The notes below the pieces were generated by a model. That model was given only the letters and a program-made list of their open reading frames with translations, had not been told where the DNA came from and searched no databases. From a virus, in IMG/VR virus record IMGVR_UViG_3300008114_000342, positions 1-30,196 of that record: a stretch of DNA of 30,196 nt. One strand, written 5' to 3'. The translations under genes were made by a program, and so were the position numbers. Shown here in pieces: positions 1,171 through 12,223 of this stretch. The first letter of the stretch is position 1. The number at the start of each line of letters is the position of its first letter.

Positions 1171-1863
1171 TTGATACTAAAATGTCTAAATAGTATTTTG
1201 TATGCTGTTTCTGGTAGGAATGATAATACGCAGATAACTATTATTGACGATGCAAGCAGTCAAGAATGTGTTGATTCCATGAAAAAGATTTTGGAATCAT
1301 ATAAACATCCATCTGAATTGATTGTTCGCGACAAAAGAGATTATAATGAAGCCACATTACAATATTTTGAGTTGGCCAGAAATAGTGATAAAACTTTAGT
1401 GTATTGTGTAGAGGACGATTATCTACATTTTCCAAACGCCATATCTGAAATGGAGTTTTTTTACAAACATGCATTTACACAACTTCATGGTACAAAAGAT
1501 ATAGTACTTCATCCATTTGATGACCCAGATAACTATTTATCAAAGTATATGGATAAGTCTCATATAGTTCAACACGGCGGTCGCCATTGGCGTACAAATT
1601 ACTATACAACGTGTACGTTTTTCACGACTCCGAGTGTTATAAACCGTGGCTGGGAACATTTTGAAAATTTCGCAAAAAATTATGGAAAAGATCCAACAAT
1701 CAATGAAAATAGTACCATAAATAACGTATGGCGAAGTGAGAATGTTCAATTGTTCAATCCCATGCCAAGTCTTGCTTTACATATGCAATTTGAAGCAAAC
1801 AGAGATAAATTGATAGATTGGAAAAAACTTTGGAATATTATTCCAGAACTATCGCAACCATGA
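1171..1863 (+). CDS. GT2-like glycosyltransferase, 5' end probably frameshifted
   Basis: A GT-A fold glycosyltransferase: IDDASS at about 25-30 is the nucleotide-sugar-binding turn of family 2, and VEDDYLH at about 80-86 is the metal-binding DXD-type motif. The in-frame start is a TTG at 1171, and the first beta strand seems to be missing. An ATG at 1127 lies in a neighbouring frame: it reads MEK and then runs into a TGA at 1172. One extra A in the A-run at 1131-1136 would join the frames and give MEKNSERFCQTDKK before the present start. I therefore suspect the gene begins at 1127 and that one base is missing, by error or mutation. It ends in an ATGA overlap with the next sugar gene, so translation is probably coupled. 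The acceptor is unknown. Confidence 0.75.
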   Translation: MILKCLNSILYAVSGRNDNTQITIIDDASSQECVDSMKKILESYKHPSELIVRDKRDYNEATLQYFELARNSDKTLVYCVEDDYLHFPNAISEMEFFYKHAFTQLHGTKDIVLHPFDDPDNYLSKYMDKSHIVQHGGRHWRTNYYTTCTFFTTPSVINRGWEHFENFAKNYGKDPTINENSTINNVWRSENVQLFNPMPSLALHMQFEANRDKLIDWKKLWNIIPELSQP

Positions 1864-3083
1864 GCAATACAAACATCACAAACACTGTCATTGATAGAAT
1901 AAGAAAAGCGGCCCTACCCAATTCTCCGAATAATATTCAGAATTTTCCAAAGATTGCCGCCAGAATGACAAGAAATGAATATTCTTTGTACAATAATACT
2001 GATACGGACAAGGATCTTATTCTACACCATCTGAAACAGAAGTTTTTAAAAGTACAAAATGAAGAAGATGTGGTTGTCGGCAACGGAAAAAATTTATTGT
2101 ATTTTACACTATTTCTCAGTGATTCTTATTTGGATGTTTTGCATATGTGCTTAAAAAGCATTGTGGCAAACACACCTAATATAAATTTTGATATATTGTT
2201 CATAACAGATGTTGAAATGAAGGCGAAGATAGAACAGCTTGATGTTATATCAAGTTTCAATGTGGATTATATGATTTTACCTACACCAAAATCTGCGCCA
2301 CTTGCTTCAACAAAAAAACTAAACATATTTGACTACGAAAAAATATCAGACTATTCAAAGATTCTTTTCTTTGATGCGGATATACTTTGCATCAAAAATT
2401 TGAATATAATTTTTGAAAAAAGTTTGGAGTCTGAAAAATTATACATCTGTGTTACGGAGATTCATAGATCGCCGCTTTTGCTTTCTCCAACGCATGGTAT
2501 CATGTATCTCAGTAAAGAAGATGCCGTGTTCATAAGTGAAAATCCAGATATAGTTCCATTTAATGCTGGACAATATATGTTTTTGAATTCATCAAGGATG
2601 GAAAAACATTTTTCCAATATACGATGGCTGAAGAACGTTTGGCCCGCTGACTATTTTTATGAACAGTCGTTTATGAATTATTATTTTGTGTTTAACTCTC
2701 TCACCAAACCTCTTATCGGCTCTGCAAGTTCTTCTGTTGAAAATGGTGGAATAAATAATATTCCACACCAATTGATATCAATCACTCATAACCAAAATAA
2801 AATTACATCTAATGATGGGGATATGTTTCTTGAAATGATAAAAATGAAAAGGTTTGCCGCTTCGAAAAATTTAATGACAGTAAGTGGAGCGACCAATAGC
2901 AATTTTTCAAACAAAACTATGTTTAAACATGCATCTATGCCAGAAGGAATAGTTGTTGATCCACTAATTCCAATGCATAATGAAAATACAGTCGCCATAC
3001 ATTTTGCAGCTACATTGTCGGACGGCTTGGACAAAAAAACATTCATGAATCTTTACGCAAATGCCCATAAGTTACACATATAA
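1860..3083 (+). CDS. GT8-like glycosyltransferase
   Basis: A 407-residue protein beginning at the ATG that overlaps the preceding stop (ATGA, 1860-1863). An ATG-like upstream extension exists but would overlap the GT2 gene further. After a roughly 75-residue N-terminal extension comes a GT-A core: YFTLFLSDSYLDVLHMCLKS, then FDILFITD, then the DXD motif FDADIL at about 171-176. This is followed by NAGQYMF at about 240 and a C-terminal IHFAATLSDG that corresponds to the conserved His of GT8 (glycogenin/LPS galactosyltransferase) enzymes. It should transfer a hexose from a nucleotide sugar with Mn2+. It sits between the GT2 and sulfotransferase genes with overlapping ends, so the three probably build one glycan. 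Confidence 0.75.
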   Translation: MSNTNITNTVIDRIRKAALPNSPNNIQNFPKIAARMTRNEYSLYNNTDTDKDLILHHLKQKFLKVQNEEDVVVGNGKNLLYFTLFLSDSYLDVLHMCLKSIVANTPNINFDILFITDVEMKAKIEQLDVISSFNVDYMILPTPKSAPLASTKKLNIFDYEKISDYSKILFFDADILCIKNLNIIFEKSLESEKLYICVTEIHRSPLLLSPTHGIMYLSKEDAVFISENPDIVPFNAGQYMFLNSSRMEKHFSNIRWLKNVWPADYFYEQSFMNYYFVFNSLTKPLIGSASSSVENGGINNIPHQLISITHNQNKITSNDGDMFLEMIKMKRFAASKNLMTVSGATNSNFSNKTMFKHASMPEGIVVDPLIPMHNENTVAIHFAATLSDGLDKKTFMNLYANAHKLHI

Positions 3084-3699
3084 TCTTGTCTTTATTCATA
3101 TACCAAAATGTGCAGGTACCACAATTGAAAAAATATTAGGTACATGCACATCTCGCGAATTGTATGGTCAAACTCCATCACCAAGACTTGGACAATATAC
3201 AACGCCGCAACATTTTACATACCTTCAATTAAAAGATACGTTGAATATAAATTGGTCCGATTATCATGCATTTTCCGTGGTAAGAAATCCATATTCAAGA
3301 TTTGTATCTGAATACAATTATCGCAAGTATCTTTTTGAAAAGACAAAACGACCAGAATTTAATCCTAGAACATTTTCAAACTTTATTGAGTGTTTGAACA
3401 AAGATGCCTCTCACAGAATATCTGCATACGATGGTCATCTAGAAACTCAATCAAGTTTCTTAAAAAATGCAAGTGGAAATATTGAGCCGTCGATTCAAAT
3501 ATTCAAGTTTGAAGATTTGACTTCATGTTGGGATATGCTTGAAGAAAAAACTGGGGTCAAATACTCAATTGATCTTTGGTCGAGAAAAAGCAATGTAGAA
3601 ATTCCATATCAGGAATTTTACACAACAGAAACAAAAAATATTATATACAACTTTTACAAGGAAGATTTTGATAACTTCGGTTATAGTACAGAATTATGA
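3061..3699 (+). CDS. PAPS-dependent sulfotransferase family protein
   Basis: A 212-residue sulfotransferase of the carbohydrate/sulfotransferase-2 type. FIHIPKCAGTTIEKIL (about 11-26) is the 5'-phosphosulfate-binding loop that contacts PAPS. SVVRNPYSRFVSEYNY (about 72-87) is the 3'-phosphate-binding motif with the conserved Arg and Ser. FKFEDL at about 148-153 matches a further conserved helix. These enzymes move sulfate from PAPS to a hydroxyl or amine of a sugar. The start overlaps the GT8 gene by 23 nt and the end overlaps the next gene as ATGA. Context suggests that the glycan made by the neighbouring glycosyltransferases is sulfated. A host-derived metabolic gene unrelated to virion decoration remains possible. 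Confidence 0.85.
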   Translation: MPISYTYNLVFIHIPKCAGTTIEKILGTCTSRELYGQTPSPRLGQYTTPQHFTYLQLKDTLNINWSDYHAFSVVRNPYSRFVSEYNYRKYLFEKTKRPEFNPRTFSNFIECLNKDASHRISAYDGHLETQSSFLKNASGNIEPSIQIFKFEDLTSCWDMLEEKTGVKYSIDLWSRKSNVEIPYQEFYTTETKNIIYNFYKEDFDNFGYSTEL

Positions 3700-4022
3700 G
3701 TGTAGAAAATAAAGGTACATGTAGTACCTGTTCTCAAAAAATTATAGAATCGGAAAAGGGCGATCCAAATGACCCTATTTTAATGAACAACAATCCAATC
3801 AGTATGCTTTTTAATTTAGGCAGTACTGCGGTTGATGTATTAAAAGAGTATAGTCGTCGTGGATTACTTGTTACGGACAACGCCATAATGGATTCTCGTA
3901 TGGAAATATGCAGTACCTGTAAAATGTTCAGTAAAGAATCAGCACGATGCGGACTTTGTGGGTGCTTTATGAAAGTAAAAATCAGATTGGCGGCGGTAAA
4001 GTGTCCACTTAGTAAATGGTAA
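3696..4022 (+). CDS. Small CxxC-rich (zinc-ribbon-like) phage protein
   Basis: A 108-residue protein starting in an ATGA overlap with the sulfotransferase stop. It has an N-terminal CSTC pair (about 9-12) and a C-terminal module EICSTCKMFSKESARCGLCGCF followed by VKCPLSKW. That gives seven cysteines in a spacing typical of a small metal-binding fold. This C-terminal module, ending in KCPLxKW, is one I recognise from uncharacterised proteins of T4-like marine phages. The middle (VDVLKEYSRRGLLV) is helical. The function is unknown; a structural or chaperone role is as likely as a regulatory one. Confidence 0.75.
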   Translation: MSVENKGTCSTCSQKIIESEKGDPNDPILMNNNPISMLFNLGSTAVDVLKEYSRRGLLVTDNAIMDSRMEICSTCKMFSKESARCGLCGCFMKVKIRLAAVKCPLSKW

Positions 4023-4098
4023 TTTTTATAACGAATGTTTGTGATTTATAATTCATATATATGAGTTGAACAATCAACTGTTACAACAACAAAATATT

Positions 4099-4377
4099 AT
4101 GGATATCAATCAAAATACATCGTCAGATCAAATCAAGTTCAGTCAAGCTGAAATTGAAGAATTAACAGCTATTCGCCGTGGCTATGAAGAAATTACATTG
4201 GCACTTGGTCAATTGGAACTTCAGAAGCGAGAACTAGTAAAGAATGAAAAACGTATTAACGAAAGATTGACTGCATCAGAAGCTCAAGAGAAGGTTTTCT
4301 TGGACAAGATTGTTGCCAAATATGGTGAAGGAACATTCGACATTCAGTCGGGTGTTTTCACTCCTAAAAAGTCGTAA
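4099..4377 (+). CDS. Small coiled-coil conserved phage protein
   Basis: A 92-residue protein (ATG at 4099; a TTG at 4066 would add 11 Gln/Asn-rich residues). From FSQAEIEELTAIRRGYEE to NERLTASEAQEKVFLDKI it is a charged helical, probably coiled-coil segment. It ends in a short conserved tail, AKYGEGTFDIQSGVFTP. Similar small proteins with the same YGxGTxDxxxGxFTP end occur in T4-like phages next to structural genes; no function is established to my knowledge. No good ribosome binding site is visible. A hairpin terminator follows about 17 nt after the stop. Confidence 0.7.
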   Translation: MDINQNTSSDQIKFSQAEIEELTAIRRGYEEITLALGQLELQKRELVKNEKRINERLTASEAQEKVFLDKIVAKYGEGTFDIQSGVFTPKKS

Positions 4378-4394
4378 TAAAGTTTTTGTTTAGC

Positions 4395-4426
4395 AAACTC
4401 AACATTTTTTATGTTTTGAGTTTTTC
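4395..4426 (+). terminator. Rho-independent terminator
   Basis: The 8-bp stem AAACTCAA/TTGAGTTT is extended by CAT/ATG with a 2-nt bulge, around a T-rich loop, and ends in a run of T. It separates the small coiled-coil gene from the sheath gene. Confidence 0.6.
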
Positions 4427-4480
4427 TAACATACTTATATATAGACTTTTTGTCGAACTTTAATAGGAGAAAATAAACAT

Positions 4481-6172
4481 ATGGCAATAGAACAAAATGG
4501 AAATTATAGCCCTTCCGAAAGAATTGTGTCTCCGGGTGTATTCACTCGTGAAATTGACCAATCATTCTTGGCACAGGGTGTGGCAGCAATCGGAGGAGTA
4601 GTCGTTGCTCCCTTTAAAAAGGGACCGGGATTTTCTCCTACAGTTATCACCAGCGAAGGTGATCTAGCAAACACATTTGGTGATCCAGATGGCGTGCTAT
4701 ACGGACCAACGACCGCGCAACAATATTTGCGTCAACAAGGTCAAGTCACTGTTGTGCGCGTTGGTGGATTGGGTGGATATGAACAAAATGATCCACTCGT
4801 CATCAGTGCTGTACCGGGACAATATGCTCGCTATATGGAATCTGGTTCTTTCACAGGAACAATTCTAAATGCGACATACACCTATGTTAATACAGGAAGT
4901 TGGAGAATTTCTGGTTCATTGAAATTGGAATTCTCATCTGGTATTTACTCTGGATCAACTGTTCTTGTTGGTGACATTAATTTCCTAACCACATCAGGAA
5001 GCACAAGTGCATCGCAAGGATCTGGCACAAATACATTCCATAGTACTTCGTTCATGGCATTGCCATTGACATCTTCTGTTCTTGCTGGTGCAACAATAAC
5101 AAACACACGTGTTGTTACTGGTAGTATCACACTAAGTGCAGTATCTTCATGCGCAAGCGAATTAAACATTGAAGGTATTCTATCTGGATCATATGGTGCA
5201 TTCAATCCAAATGCTTGGACACCTGCCGCAACATCATCAATGACATGCGGAACTGCATCACTTGTTTCTGGTAGCGACGAGGTTGTGTTGGCAGTTCTGG
5301 CCAATACAGCATATGATCGTGGTCAAAATCTATATGGATTCAATGGATCTATTCTAACAAGCAAAGACACAACAGATGCAGTTGATACTGATTTCATGTT
5401 GCAATTGTCTTCTTCATATCTTGATACGGATACAAATACTTATGTATCAAGTTCGTATGGATTATATGAATTCTCGATTGATCCAGAATCTTCAGCATAT
5501 GTAACAAATGTATTTGGTACAGATCCAAATGCAGGATTTGCTCCAGTTGCTGCTGGTCAAAAGATTGAAGCCGCTTATACATATAAGCACTTTGAATACA
5601 AAGCAAAGCGTATTGTAAGTGAAATGCTAGCATCTGGTTCTTGGAAGATTCAAATATCCACTCCGGGCAGCAACATGAAGTTCACCGATGGTATTACTCC
5701 TGACGAAGGAACTTCTACATTCGACCTAACAAATGCATATACGCCATTTATTCGCTCACAAAAGATCTCGGCATTTAACAGCACTGGATCTGGAATCGCA
5801 TATGACTTGTTCCAAGTTCATACTATCAGCGACGGCGATGCATCAAACAAGATGTTCAAAGTTGAAATCAGCAACGTCCGTAGTCCGGGTTCAATCTCTG
5901 GAACAAAATATGGTTCGTTCTCTCTTGTCGTAAGACAGTATGGAGACACAGACGCAAAGTCAGTAATCGTTGAACGCTATGACAATCTAAACTTGGATGT
6001 CAATAGCAGCAATTATGTAGCTCGCCGTATTGGTGATACATACAACTACATCGACTTCAATGGTAAGATCATTGAAATCGGAAATTATCCACAAAAGAGC
6101 AAGTGCCTTCAATGTCATACTGCGCTGCATCAGCATACTTGTTGCAACCGGGACGTTATTGCTCTGGAGTAG
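4481..6172 (+). CDS. gp18: Contractile tail sheath protein, N-terminal part (frameshifted gene)
   Basis: The first 540 or so residues of a T4 gp18-like sheath protein. The conserved N-terminus is present: SPGVFTREIDQSFL, AIGGVVVAPFKKGP, and FGDPDGVLYGPTTAQQYLRQ. From about residue 118 to 265 there is a Ser/Thr/Gly-rich, beta-strand-like insertion, after which family sequence resumes at AVLANTAYDRGQNLYGFNGS. The start is well supported by AGGAG at 4465-4469, although the spacing of 11 nt is long. Good family sequence continues to IGNYPQKSK at about 6080-6103. It then degenerates into a Cys/His-rich tail, and the true C-terminal half continues in the -1 frame (next entry). Six sheath molecules form each contractile ring around the tube. 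The joined product would be about 960 residues, far longer than the 659 of T4 gp18. Confidence 0.92.
   Translation: MAIEQNGNYSPSERIVSPGVFTREIDQSFLAQGVAAIGGVVVAPFKKGPGFSPTVITSEGDLANTFGDPDGVLYGPTTAQQYLRQQGQVTVVRVGGLGGYEQNDPLVISAVPGQYARYMESGSFTGTILNATYTYVNTGSWRISGSLKLEFSSGIYSGSTVLVGDINFLTTSGSTSASQGSGTNTFHSTSFMALPLTSSVLAGATITNTRVVTGSITLSAVSSCASELNIEGILSGSYGAFNPNAWTPAATSSMTCGTASLVSGSDEVVLAVLANTAYDRGQNLYGFNGSILTSKDTTDAVDTDFMLQLSSSYLDTDTNTYVSSSYGLYEFSIDPESSAYVTNVFGTDPNAGFAPVAAGQKIEAAYTYKHFEYKAKRIVSEMLASGSWKIQISTPGSNMKFTDGITPDEGTSTFDLTNAYTPFIRSQKISAFNSTGSGIAYDLFQVHTISDGDASNKMFKVEISNVRSPGSISGTKYGSFSLVVRQYGDTDAKSVIVERYDNLNLDVNSSNYVARRIGDTYNYIDFNGKIIEIGNYPQKSKCLQCHTALHQHTCCNRDVIALE
6086..6105 (+). other. 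Apparent -1 frameshift site inside the sheath gene
   Basis: Upstream sheath sequence in frame 2 (NYPQKSK) and downstream sheath sequence in frame 1 (VPSMSYCAAS) meet here, within CACAAAAGAGCAAG. Loss of one base, for example from the A-run at 6093-6096, explains it. No X XXY YYZ slippery heptamer is present in the zero frame, so programmed -1 frameshifting is not supported. Confidence 0.75.
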
Positions 6173-7377
6173 TGTTCCAACCAGCACCTTCAAATGCAGA
6201 TGCTGATCTAAGAGCACTGTATCCACAAGGTTCAGCCGAAGGATCCGAGTTGGACAACAAGCAATATTTTGCTCCAGTTCCATACGGTGCATCCGCAGAA
6301 GCAAACGCCGCGTTCGATTTGGAAACAGATGCAGGGGTAACTCCGCTATATGTTGCTTCCGAAGAAAGCGTAAATGTAAAGAAGCGCCGCTTCATCCTTG
6401 GTTTCCAAGGTGGATTCGATGGTCAGTCTCCATCGATCCCTGTATTGGTAGGCGATGATATTGTACCAACCAATCAACAAGGATTGAATTGCTCAACAAA
6501 CACATCATACGGTTCATATGCATACAAGCAAGCCTTGACCGCATTGAGCAACGCAGATGAGTTTGATTTCAACCTGATCACCGTTCCGGGTATTAACTAC
6601 GAACAACATCCATACGTTGCAGGTTTGACAATTGAAATCTGCGAAAATCGTGGTGATGCATTCTATATCATGGACATTGCTCCAAATCAAAATGCAGGTG
6701 ATGCGGCTATCAACAATGTTGTTGGATTGGCAGGTCAATTCGACACCAATTATGCTGCAACATACTATCCTTGGGTGAAGGTTGTTGACACAAATACCAA
6801 TAAGATAATGCCAGTACCACCATCTGTTGTAATGATGAGCGTTTATGCCGCAAACGACAAGGTGTCTGCTGAATGGTTTGCTCCTGCGGGTCTAAACCGT
6901 GGTGGTATTCCAACCGCAGTATCGGTTGCTGATAGATTGACACACACCGAACGCGACACTCTATATGAAGGTCACGTAAACCCAATCGCAGCGTTTCCGG
7001 GACAAGGAGTGGTGGCATGGGGTCAAAAGACACTACAACGCAATCCAAGCGCATTGGATCGCATCAATGTACGTCGTTTGTTGATCGCATTGAAGAAGTT
7101 TATCGCTTCATCGAGCCGCTACCTAGTATTCGAACAGAATGTGGCAACAACTCGCCAACGTTTCCTAAATATTGTTAACCCATATTTGGAAAGCGTACAG
7201 CAACGTTCTGGTATCTATGCCTTCAAGGTAGTAATGGATGATACCAACAATACGCCTGACTTGGTTGATAGAAATATCCTTTATGGACAAATCTATATCC
7301 AACCAACACGTACTGCTGAATTCATTGTATTGGACTTCAATGTATTGCCAACAGGCGCTACATTTCCGGGAGCCTAA
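6103..7377 (+). CDS. gp18: Contractile tail sheath protein, C-terminal part (frameshifted gene)
   Basis: The remainder of the sheath gene, in the frame -1 to the N-terminal part; this frame is open from 6076. It contains the most conserved region of gp18: FILGFQGGFDGQSPSIP, DEFDFNLITVPGI, ENRGDAFYIMDI, and GLNRGGI. RLTHTERDTLYEGHVNPIA, RINVRRLLIALKKFI and the C-terminal IQPTRTAEFIVLDFNVLPTGA follow. These C-terminal segments form the core around the tube and mediate contraction. The listed GTG start at 6103 is only formal and is unlikely to be used. The gene ends 24 nt before a strong terminator. Because a phage lacking sheath would be dead, I read the break as a missing base in the sequence rather than a pseudogene, unless recoding joins the frames. 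Confidence 0.92.
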   Translation: MPSMSYCAASAYLLQPGRYCSGVVFQPAPSNADADLRALYPQGSAEGSELDNKQYFAPVPYGASAEANAAFDLETDAGVTPLYVASEESVNVKKRRFILGFQGGFDGQSPSIPVLVGDDIVPTNQQGLNCSTNTSYGSYAYKQALTALSNADEFDFNLITVPGINYEQHPYVAGLTIEICENRGDAFYIMDIAPNQNAGDAAINNVVGLAGQFDTNYAATYYPWVKVVDTNTNKIMPVPPSVVMMSVYAANDKVSAEWFAPAGLNRGGIPTAVSVADRLTHTERDTLYEGHVNPIAAFPGQGVVAWGQKTLQRNPSALDRINVRRLLIALKKFIASSSRYLVFEQNVATTRQRFLNIVNPYLESVQQRSGIYAFKVVMDDTNNTPDLVDRNILYGQIYIQPTRTAEFIVLDFNVLPTGATFPGA

Positions 7378-10720: not shown

Positions 10721-12223
10721 TTATTTTCTCCAAATCCATTTACTATGTCCACAATCCCATATTCTGTCAAATCCATTATTTTTCATGTTTTCCCATTCAG
10801 ACATTTCTGGGTCAAACTTCTCTAATCTTTCTGCCAACTTGTTTTTCTGAAACATTTGTCTGTTGAACAGTGCTTTATAGTCTGGCGAGATATAATAGTA
10901 ACCTTGTGGAGTATAGCTTTCAAACTTCATTCCCAATTTACTGTATACATCACCTGAAAAATATCTTCTGTCAGAATAACTTACTATGTTATTTGGAGAA
11001 TAGTCGTGTAGAAATACATTAAATAATTTGCTTGCACCACCATGTATCTTTGTATTTAGCGCGTTGCAAAATCTGGATATTTCCCATTCGCACTTTTTGT
11101 CAAATCTACTCTTGCAGAAAGTCATAATACTGACAAGTGTGCCTTTGTAGAATAGTCCATATGCCACAGACGACTTGTCGTTGCCTTGAATGTGACAATT
11201 ATTCAGAAAGTCTTTCTTGGTGTTAGAGTCTACTTTCTTGATATCACACTCTCTGCCATGAATCTTGGCAACAAATCCGCCAAGAGTTTGTCTAATAATG
11301 GATTTTACAATGTTTTGTTTTTGCAGCCATTCGTTTTCAAATATATGAATCAGTTTTATACCCTTCTCTTCACATGCTTGTGTTTTTTCCAAGTGATAAT
11401 TTTTTGAAACTCGAACGCTTTCCTTGTGCCAATACAGTCCATTATATTCAATAGCTATGTTCAGATCTGGAATATAGAAGTCTAATTCTTTTCCATTAAG
11501 AACTGTTCGGTTGTTTCTTGATATCAACTTGCCATTAAGTTCACTGTTTAGAAAGTCTAGCAGCGATTTTTCTCCTGTGTTCTTTTTGTCTGGATAACAC
11601 AGTTCACAGAATACATTGTTAGGAACATATACTGTAGAGTCGAATGTGTTGCTGCACTTATTGCACCTAAACTTGTATGATTTGGAAAAATGATATCCTT
11701 CATACTCATCTGGTTGTATTAGCCATGTAAGATTGTTAGCGGCAAACAATGCAGATAGATCGGTGTAATGGTTTTCTTGTTTGCGCTTGCTTCTGCGAGA
11801 TATAACTTCGTCGGCTTTGCCGGGATTGTCTACACCATATTTGTCAATCCATGTTTGTTTTATCTGTTCTCTTAATGGACTGTTTGCAGATAATACATTT
11901 TCTACCCCATAGTTCTGTACAGTTGTTCTCTTAGCTTTGTCTTGTATAGACTTTACTTGCATGGCATATTCTTTGCCATACTTTTCAGACATAGAAGTCT
12001 TGTATCGTTCTTGTGTCTCTTTCGTCTTCATGGCGTGACCGCCATATTTTTCATTGAATGTATTTTCTACACCTTGTCTGTTTTTTTCCTTGACATCTGG
12101 TGAATTGGCAGAGCAAGACTTGCTACAATACTTCTTGGGCTTGTATTTCTTATATTCGAATACAATTTCACATGTTGGGCATGTAGATTTAATAATGGTG
12201 TCTGCGCTTCTAGGTCTGGCCAT
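10721..12223 (-). CDS. EDxHD-type homing endonuclease
   Basis: A 500-residue free-standing homing endonuclease. The N-terminus has a Cys4-like finger (CPTC at 15-18, CSKSC at 33-37). It is followed by three or four repeats of about 25 residues around EKYG/NYGVEN/DKYGVDN (about 53-135), typical of DNA-recognition repeats in such proteins. A second finger CNKC...CELC is at about 187-209. The nuclease core is E218 in GEKSLLDFL, D248 in ELDFYIPDLNIAIEYNG, and H266 in YWHKE. This is the Vsr-like EDxHD arrangement known from I-Bth0305I. The C-terminal DNA-binding part ends in DCGHSKWIW, common in this family. It would cut a phage allele lacking the insertion and spread by repair. It is on the opposite strand to the late genes, between sheath and tube. 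Confidence 0.88.
   Translation of the reverse strand: MARPRSADTIIKSTCPTCEIVFEYKKYKPKKYCSKSCSANSPDVKEKNRQGVENTFNEKYGGHAMKTKETQERYKTSMSEKYGKEYAMQVKSIQDKAKRTTVQNYGVENVLSANSPLREQIKQTWIDKYGVDNPGKADEVISRRSKRKQENHYTDLSALFAANNLTWLIQPDEYEGYHFSKSYKFRCNKCSNTFDSTVYVPNNVFCELCYPDKKNTGEKSLLDFLNSELNGKLISRNNRTVLNGKELDFYIPDLNIAIEYNGLYWHKESVRVSKNYHLEKTQACEEKGIKLIHIFENEWLQKQNIVKSIIRQTLGGFVAKIHGRECDIKKVDSNTKKDFLNNCHIQGNDKSSVAYGLFYKGTLVSIMTFCKSRFDKKCEWEISRFCNALNTKIHGGASKLFNVFLHDYSPNNIVSYSDRRYFSGDVYSKLGMKFESYTPQGYYYISPDYKALFNRQMFQKNKLAERLEKFDPEMSEWENMKNNGFDRIWDCGHSKWIWRK

Follow-up and report, generated by a model that had tools for sequence, protein, structure and literature searches.

The window analysed here, 30,196 bases in length, is the whole of IMG/VR record IMGVR_UViG_3300008114_000342, which is classed as linear and so is perhaps a fragment. 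It carries a set of T4-type phage tail genes, namely a sheath gene present as two open reading frames (ORFs), a gp19-type tail tube gene (PF06841) and genes for two T4-baseplate-type proteins (PF12322). No RNA families or tRNA genes were found in the window. The features of concern are listed below, where Mel-type refers to sheaths like that of Microcystis phage Mel-JY01.

1171..1863, plus strand: GT2-type glycosyltransferase ORF, sheath neighbour (PF00535, 27 bits, cut-off 23.3)
1818..3083, plus strand: GT8-type glycosyltransferase ORF, sheath neighbour (PF01501, 29.8 bits, cut-off 24.3)
3061..3699, plus strand: sulfotransferase ORF, sheath neighbour (PF03567, 70.8 bits, cut-off 22)
4481..6172, plus strand: first ORF of the sheath (563 aa), with homology to relatives up to about residue 541
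4481..4786, plus strand: N-terminal core, residues 1-102, gp18 domain III N-terminal region (PF22671 in the family)
4787..5248, plus strand: inserted Ser/Thr/Gly-rich, predicted beta domain, residues about 103-256 (composition; model; absent from Mel-type sheaths)
5150..5152, plus strand: invariant Cys224 codon (Cys in all 23 aligned domains)
5246..5248, plus strand: invariant Cys256 codon (Cys in all 23 aligned domains)
5264..5680, plus strand: beta module A, residues 262-400 (model; matched by Mel-type residues 92-225 in profile comparison, probability 72.6)
5693..6103, plus strand: beta module B, residues 405-541 (model, with resemblance to the P1 and H. borinquense sheaths; profile match to Mel-type sheaths)
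6103..7377, plus strand: second sheath ORF, C-terminal core (PF04984 and PF17482, both over cut-offs)

Identification of the protein as a gp18-like sheath comes from the second ORF, which matches PF04984 with 57.6 bits (cut-off 31.4) and PF17482 with 44.4 bits (cut-off 26.9); the sheath also matches phrog_23, tail sheath (4.3e-68). The N-terminal core of the window's own sheath matches no Pfam family, PF22671 being found only in other members of the family (16 of 24 at E <= 0.1, best 2.9e-5), and by profile it weakly resembles residues 5-82 of T4 gp18. Between the two cores lie three beta stretches, a multi-domain (type 3) layout that is seen both in the structural model (mean pLDDT 64.8) and in the profile comparison with Mel-type sheaths.

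The sheath gene is read as two ORFs, 4481-6172 and 6103-7377, since the window lacks about 109 bases near position 6103 that the aligned loci L002, L003 and L007 possess, and homology of the first ORF stops at about residue 541 for the same reason. The break, which falls outside the insert, is either a contig error or a real deletion, and both halves match one unbroken ORF in 28 of 29 loci. The exception is locus L027 (10001-11704 of a 97-kb record), in which all frames of the sheath gene are broken. With 34% identity it had been considered as a distant relative or intermediate, but it was dropped given its broken reading frames and L010-like sequence, and is best regarded as a low-quality record that mimics a distant relative.

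Two further observations concern this region. Modules A and B (5264-6103) exhibit a weak profile similarity to each other that is perhaps the trace of an old internal duplication. Their profile score of 34.4 is above that of 100 of 100 column shuffles (maximum 18.5), one block shuffle reached 32.5, and in Mel-type sheaths the similarity of A to B is weak (probability 6.6). Additionally, a homing-endonuclease-like ORF (10721-12223, minus strand; phrog_3339, E 4.6e-125) is located between the sheath and tail tube genes, and its homologues occur in either orientation at 28 of 53 loci of relatives.

An earlier sequence-only reading of this DNA had described a segment dominated by Ser, Thr and Gly at about residues 118-265 of the sheath, and this segment is real. 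Residues 118-265 (nucleotides 4832-5275) are 46.6% S+T+G (S 20.3%, T 14.9%, G 11.5%) with little charge (D+E 3.4%, K+R 2.0%), as compared with 26.5% S+T+G in residues 1-117, 27.6% in residues 266-548, 19.1% in the second sheath ORF and 26.6% in both ORFs together. It is the richest 148-residue stretch of the sheath, at a level that none of 5000 shuffles reach, and it is also the richest stretch of that length among 24 ORFs of the window that were compared, the runner-up having 34.5%. The bias is common to the family (34.2-46.6% in the 23 alignment rows that span the segment). Among 12 other phage sheaths, comparable stretches occur in S-8S56 (43.9%, from residue 230), S-CAM9 (42.6%, from 158) and Flavobacterium phage immuto (43.2%, from 149), and the richest stretch of the T4 sheath has 27.7%. 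The AVLANTAYD segment that was said to follow the insert is indeed found at residues 271-279. The span of the insert needs one adjustment, in that 118-265 holds for the rich segment while structure and homology place the limits of the domain at about 103-256.

That the segment is an insert is borne out relative to related sheaths. Mel-JY01-type sheaths (81 among the matches listed) lack about 147 residues at this site, as does the sheath of a 484-kb uncultured phage. The sheaths of Mel-JY01 and its relatives are otherwise like that of the window, with a core, modules A and B and a C-terminal part of 60% identity. Complete window-type sheaths are 987-1101 aa long as compared with 812 aa in Mel-JY01; a search with the Mel-JY01 sheath gave at least 600 stretches, and the 80 Mel-type sheaths kept among the matches listed have 799-819 aa, one of them cut at its start. 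The strongest BLAST segment pairs Mel-JY01 residues 97-812 with residues 264-992 of L002, and the LR756508 sheath aligns with L002 in two segments (3-88 with 13-100, then 115-824 with 285-991). A second, weaker gapped segment (Mel-JY01 3-448 with L002 12-462, 25.7% identity) crosses the insert region, so the edges of the missing piece are approximate. From the GGY motif of the N-terminal core to the FG motif of module A, the median distance is 90 residues in Mel-type sheaths (measurable in 73 of the 81 among the matches listed) and 237 residues in window-type sheaths (22 of 24 rows). Mel-type residues 92-225 match the profile of module A (probability 72.6) and not that of the inserted domain (0.6). 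Because a global MAFFT alignment smeared Mel-type residues over the columns of the domain, the argument for an insertion is made from BLAST, profiles, motif distance and lengths.

A profile of the domain, searched at E up to 10 against 7272 ORFs (145 sources, 60 codons or longer), finds only sheaths of this family and has no match in any of the 80 Mel-type sheaths among the matches listed. Searched alone, the domain has a best PDB sequence match of E 0.03, and tblastn against 50,697 phage records finds nothing at E 1. A tree built from the last 300 sheath residues of 43 rows, 11 of which belong to neither group, separates the 19 domain-bearing rows from the rest by one branch and the 13 Mel-type rows by another, each with 99/99 support. 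By these sequence comparisons the domain is restricted to one well-supported clade, which is that of the window. The long branches of the tree leave its deeper order unsure, and the domain may have been gained in this clade or lost elsewhere.

Structure prediction supports the proposal that the insert is a beta domain. An AlphaFold2 model of residues 1-548, built with 24 aligned sequences, has its best-modelled part in the insert, where block pLDDT is 73-93 over residues 111-250; the N-terminal core (residues 1-100, pLDDT 27-58) is a weak spot. Residues 103-250 contain no helix and nine strands of five or more residues (106-117, 120-137, 140-151, 160-169, 175-179, 184-191, 210-220, 226-236 and 241-248), and the insert strands are repeated in the model of L002 from the same family, which in full length has a mean pLDDT of 47.9 and is poor outside of the outer domains. 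Thus, the insert is predicted with good confidence to be a discrete all-beta, barrel-like domain.

Structural matches to these models are all below Z 8, and we use them as support for placement of the domain and not for its fold family. Residues 118-240 give weak matches (Z 2.9-4.8) to unrelated proteins, enzymes among them, that form closed barrels. Residues 411-548, which approximate module B, match an outer part of the P1 and H. borinquense sheaths (Z 6.6-7.6), and the L002 model matches the P1 sheath over residues 99-394 (Z 5.6) and T4 gp18M over 35-390 (Z 5.2). On the VIA list, T4 entries 3foa and 3j2m are among the matches for the L002 model, with none among the matches listed for the window model. 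Foldseek found nothing in the PDB at E 0.001 or better for the 548-residue model; in BFVD it gave four matches, of which two are named tail sheath protein, one is a COG3497 sheath and one is nameless.

The sequence-only reading had supposed that T4 gp18 has no such segment at this point, which is contradicted by the description, in a T4 tail review, of T4 gp18 domain I (residues 98-188) as a six-stranded barrel inserted in domain II, itself inserted in domain III (PMC3004832; the same residues are repeated in PMC8570332). According to PMC3004832, the fragment made up of domains I and II is solvent-exposed, with domain I protruding. The N-terminal core corresponds to the N-terminal region of gp18 domain III, as seen in 16 of 24 members, and so the insert begins where T4 has domain I; the order of segments also matches, as the N-terminal part of domain III precedes the insert and another outer domain follows it. 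T4 domain I is a beta-barrel and the window's domain is predicted to be barrel-like, and both follow the same part of domain III. They differ in that T4 domain I has 91 residues, six strands plus a helix and 29.7% S+T+G, whereas the window's domain has about 150 residues, nine strands, no helix and 46.6% S+T+G (residues 118-265), and comparison gave neither sequence similarity nor a direct alignment between them. Because the place of the insert matches the protruding part of T4 gp18, it is likely, by analogy, that the insert is on the outside of the tail. Of the claim of an external beta domain, the beta character is thus upheld by the model, and the external position is likely on the T4 comparison. 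Alternation of strand polarity does not identify a clear outer face, since 371 of 2000 shuffles reach the observed value.

Other known sheaths provide further comparisons. For example, model residues 100-395 superimpose on residues 103-374 of the protease-resistant fragment of phiKZ gp29 (3SPE), at the same place in the sheath, but this match is weak and also spans module A (Z 4.8, rmsd 4.7, 136 residues, 10% identity). Evseev et al. 2022 (PMC9230969) describe extra outer domains, mostly beta, in sheaths of large phages and suggest roles in stability or adhesion; in modelled and solved sheaths these add-on domains sit away from the tube. The window's sheath resembles their multi-domain (type 3) sheaths, where a conserved core is interrupted by several beta add-on domains. 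Type 3 add-ons are often Ig-like, and the weak matches of the window's domain are closed barrels of unrelated proteins; among the matches listed for residues 118-240, no entry is named Ig-like. Sheath add-on domains are already common in big phages, and that of the window is one clade's version.

The domain is also the most divergent part of the sheath. In 210 pairs from 21 rows (three partial rows were set aside), the N-terminal core averages 78% identity, module B 65%, module A 58% and the inserted domain 37%, the last being the least identical of the four segments in 209 pairs. Its length (residues 103-250 of the window) ranges from 135 to 222 residues over the 21 rows. In 13 chosen pairs dN/dS of the domain is 0.06-0.31 and is the highest of the four segments in 11, the exceptions being L018/L022, where there is a tie, and L047/L052, where modules A and B are higher. 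These values suggest that the domain is under loose purifying selection. Ten of its columns are invariant in 23 rows, C224 and C256 among them, and these two positions account for 46 of the 52 cysteines in the 23 aligned domains, hinting at an outer domain that may be stapled by a disulfide.

We consider it probable that the insert is a lineage-specific, independently folding beta domain in the outer part of a T4-type contractile sheath, located at the place of T4 domain I and forming a hydrophilic coat. Several other explanations were weighed against this. Bias toward Ser, Thr and Gly, low charge and variable length (135-222 residues, 21 rows) are what a disordered, low-complexity linker lacking any defined fold might display, but the confident strands of the model, the ten invariant positions and purifying selection in the 13 pairs make this extremely improbable, and it was rejected on the model and conservation. 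The lowest identity of the four segments in 209 of 210 pairs and the top dN/dS in 11 of 13 would fit a dedicated adhesin or host-surface-binding domain engaged in an arms race and not simply a coat, and PMC9230969 counts adhesion among possible roles of additional sheath domains. However, dN/dS of at most 0.31 gives no gene-wide sign of positive selection and the window's row resembles no carbohydrate-binding family in Pfam, so that we regard a dedicated adhesin as unlikely.

A further proposal was that the insert accepts sugars, possibly sulfated, from products of the GT2, GT8 and sulfotransferase genes, such that the tail is decorated for shielding or for tuning of adsorption. The insert is rich in Ser and Thr, the three genes are 0.8-3.3 kb upstream on the same strand as the sheath, and glycans on mycobacteriophage virion proteins are mentioned in PMC12619734. 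Nevertheless, in the comparison with relatives that the sequence-only reading had suggested, those without these genes keep the S/T-rich domain, and its S+T content does not track them. Means are 0.277 and 0.264 in six distinct inserts with the cassette versus nine without it (p = 0.56), the nine being those with at least 6.9 kb upstream in a sample of 39 sheaths and 23 distinct inserts, and p = 0.53 when the six are compared with all 17 without. The most telling single example is L022, a 297-kb record that lacks PF03567 and PF01501 although it does have GT2-type genes; its insert shares 99.4% identity with the inserts of five carriers. The cassette is opposite in strand to the sheath in L004-L006, L008 and L024, the insert contains one N-x-S/T sequon versus an average of 2.75 in shuffles, and the Bacteroidota O-glycosylation motif is absent from it. 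Equal S+T content, L022 and sequons that are not enriched led us to reject a glycosylation tract as the main reading, and we judge sugar attachment from the upstream genes to be very unlikely. Sugar may come from other glycosyltransferases on the records (PF00535 is in 11 of 30) or from host enzymes. No title on sheath glycosylation was among the papers listed by full-text searches, titles alone being no proof of absence. We read the S/T/G bias as surface composition and not as a sugar-attachment tract, which warns against deducing sheath glycosylation from a Ser/Thr bias plus adjoining sugar genes.

Distribution of the sugar genes is of some interest in itself. Relatives of the window's GT8 and sulfotransferase genes were found by tblastn at the same 13 of 53 loci, and those of GT2 at seven. 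GT8 and sulfotransferase occur together or not at all (together in L002, L004-L006, L008, L018-L021, L023, L024, L035 and L037), like a movable cassette beside the sheath. A minus-strand ORF at 40-1065, with no family assigned, and the adjoining GT2 ORF are present at the same seven of 53 loci and may constitute a further module in the vicinity of the sheath. In the 30 whole records searched, which are drawn from 50 family loci, PF03567 and PF01501 are found in an identical set of eight and PF00535 in 11, seven of them over the cut-off; as many records are fragments, absence is weak evidence.

Under the preferred reading, that of a lineage-specific outer beta domain, the domain would face outward on the sheath and would be dispensable for assembly or contraction, because related sheaths are built without it. 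It would provide a hydrophilic outer coat, either lending stability to the tail or contacting the host surface weakly, and its cysteine pair may form a disulfide once the virion is released from the cell. A precedent for the latter is Agrobacterium phage Milano, in which sheath cysteines can link subunits (PMC10811340). Both sheaths have conserved cysteines, one of those in Milano residing in an outer sheath extension domain; they differ in that inter-subunit bonds are shown in Milano (PMC10811340), whereas the window clade exhibits conservation of two cysteines only.

Kinship between the domain and module A is a lead only. Their profile score of 28.9 exceeds every one of 100 column shuffles, which peak at 20.9, and every one of 100 block shuffles, which peak at 23.1; the reversed profile scores 22.4. 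No profile similarity was found between the domain and module B, nor, as given above, between the domain and the Mel-type module A. A more speculative scheme, which we think distinctly unlikely, would have the clade's outer coat of cysteine-bearing barrels close chemically after virion exit, with C224 and C256 bonding each other or a neighbouring subunit and so hardening the extended tail; contraction would then depend on release of these bonds, as proposed for Milano (PMC10811340). The barrel would perhaps be a diverged, enlarged copy of module A, and the coat would have grown by internal duplication.

Roles of add-on domains are put forward as suggestions in PMC9230969. Among phages related to that of the window, matched sheaths can be compared that have or lack one outer domain, which makes the role of such an add-on in stability, adhesion or shielding testable. 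One relative, L022, also has at 3711-6035 an ORF of 774 aa in which KTNGTLWAWG- and KAIFGYG-type repeats recur many times; by eye these are RCC1-like, and the ORF may encode a tail fibre.
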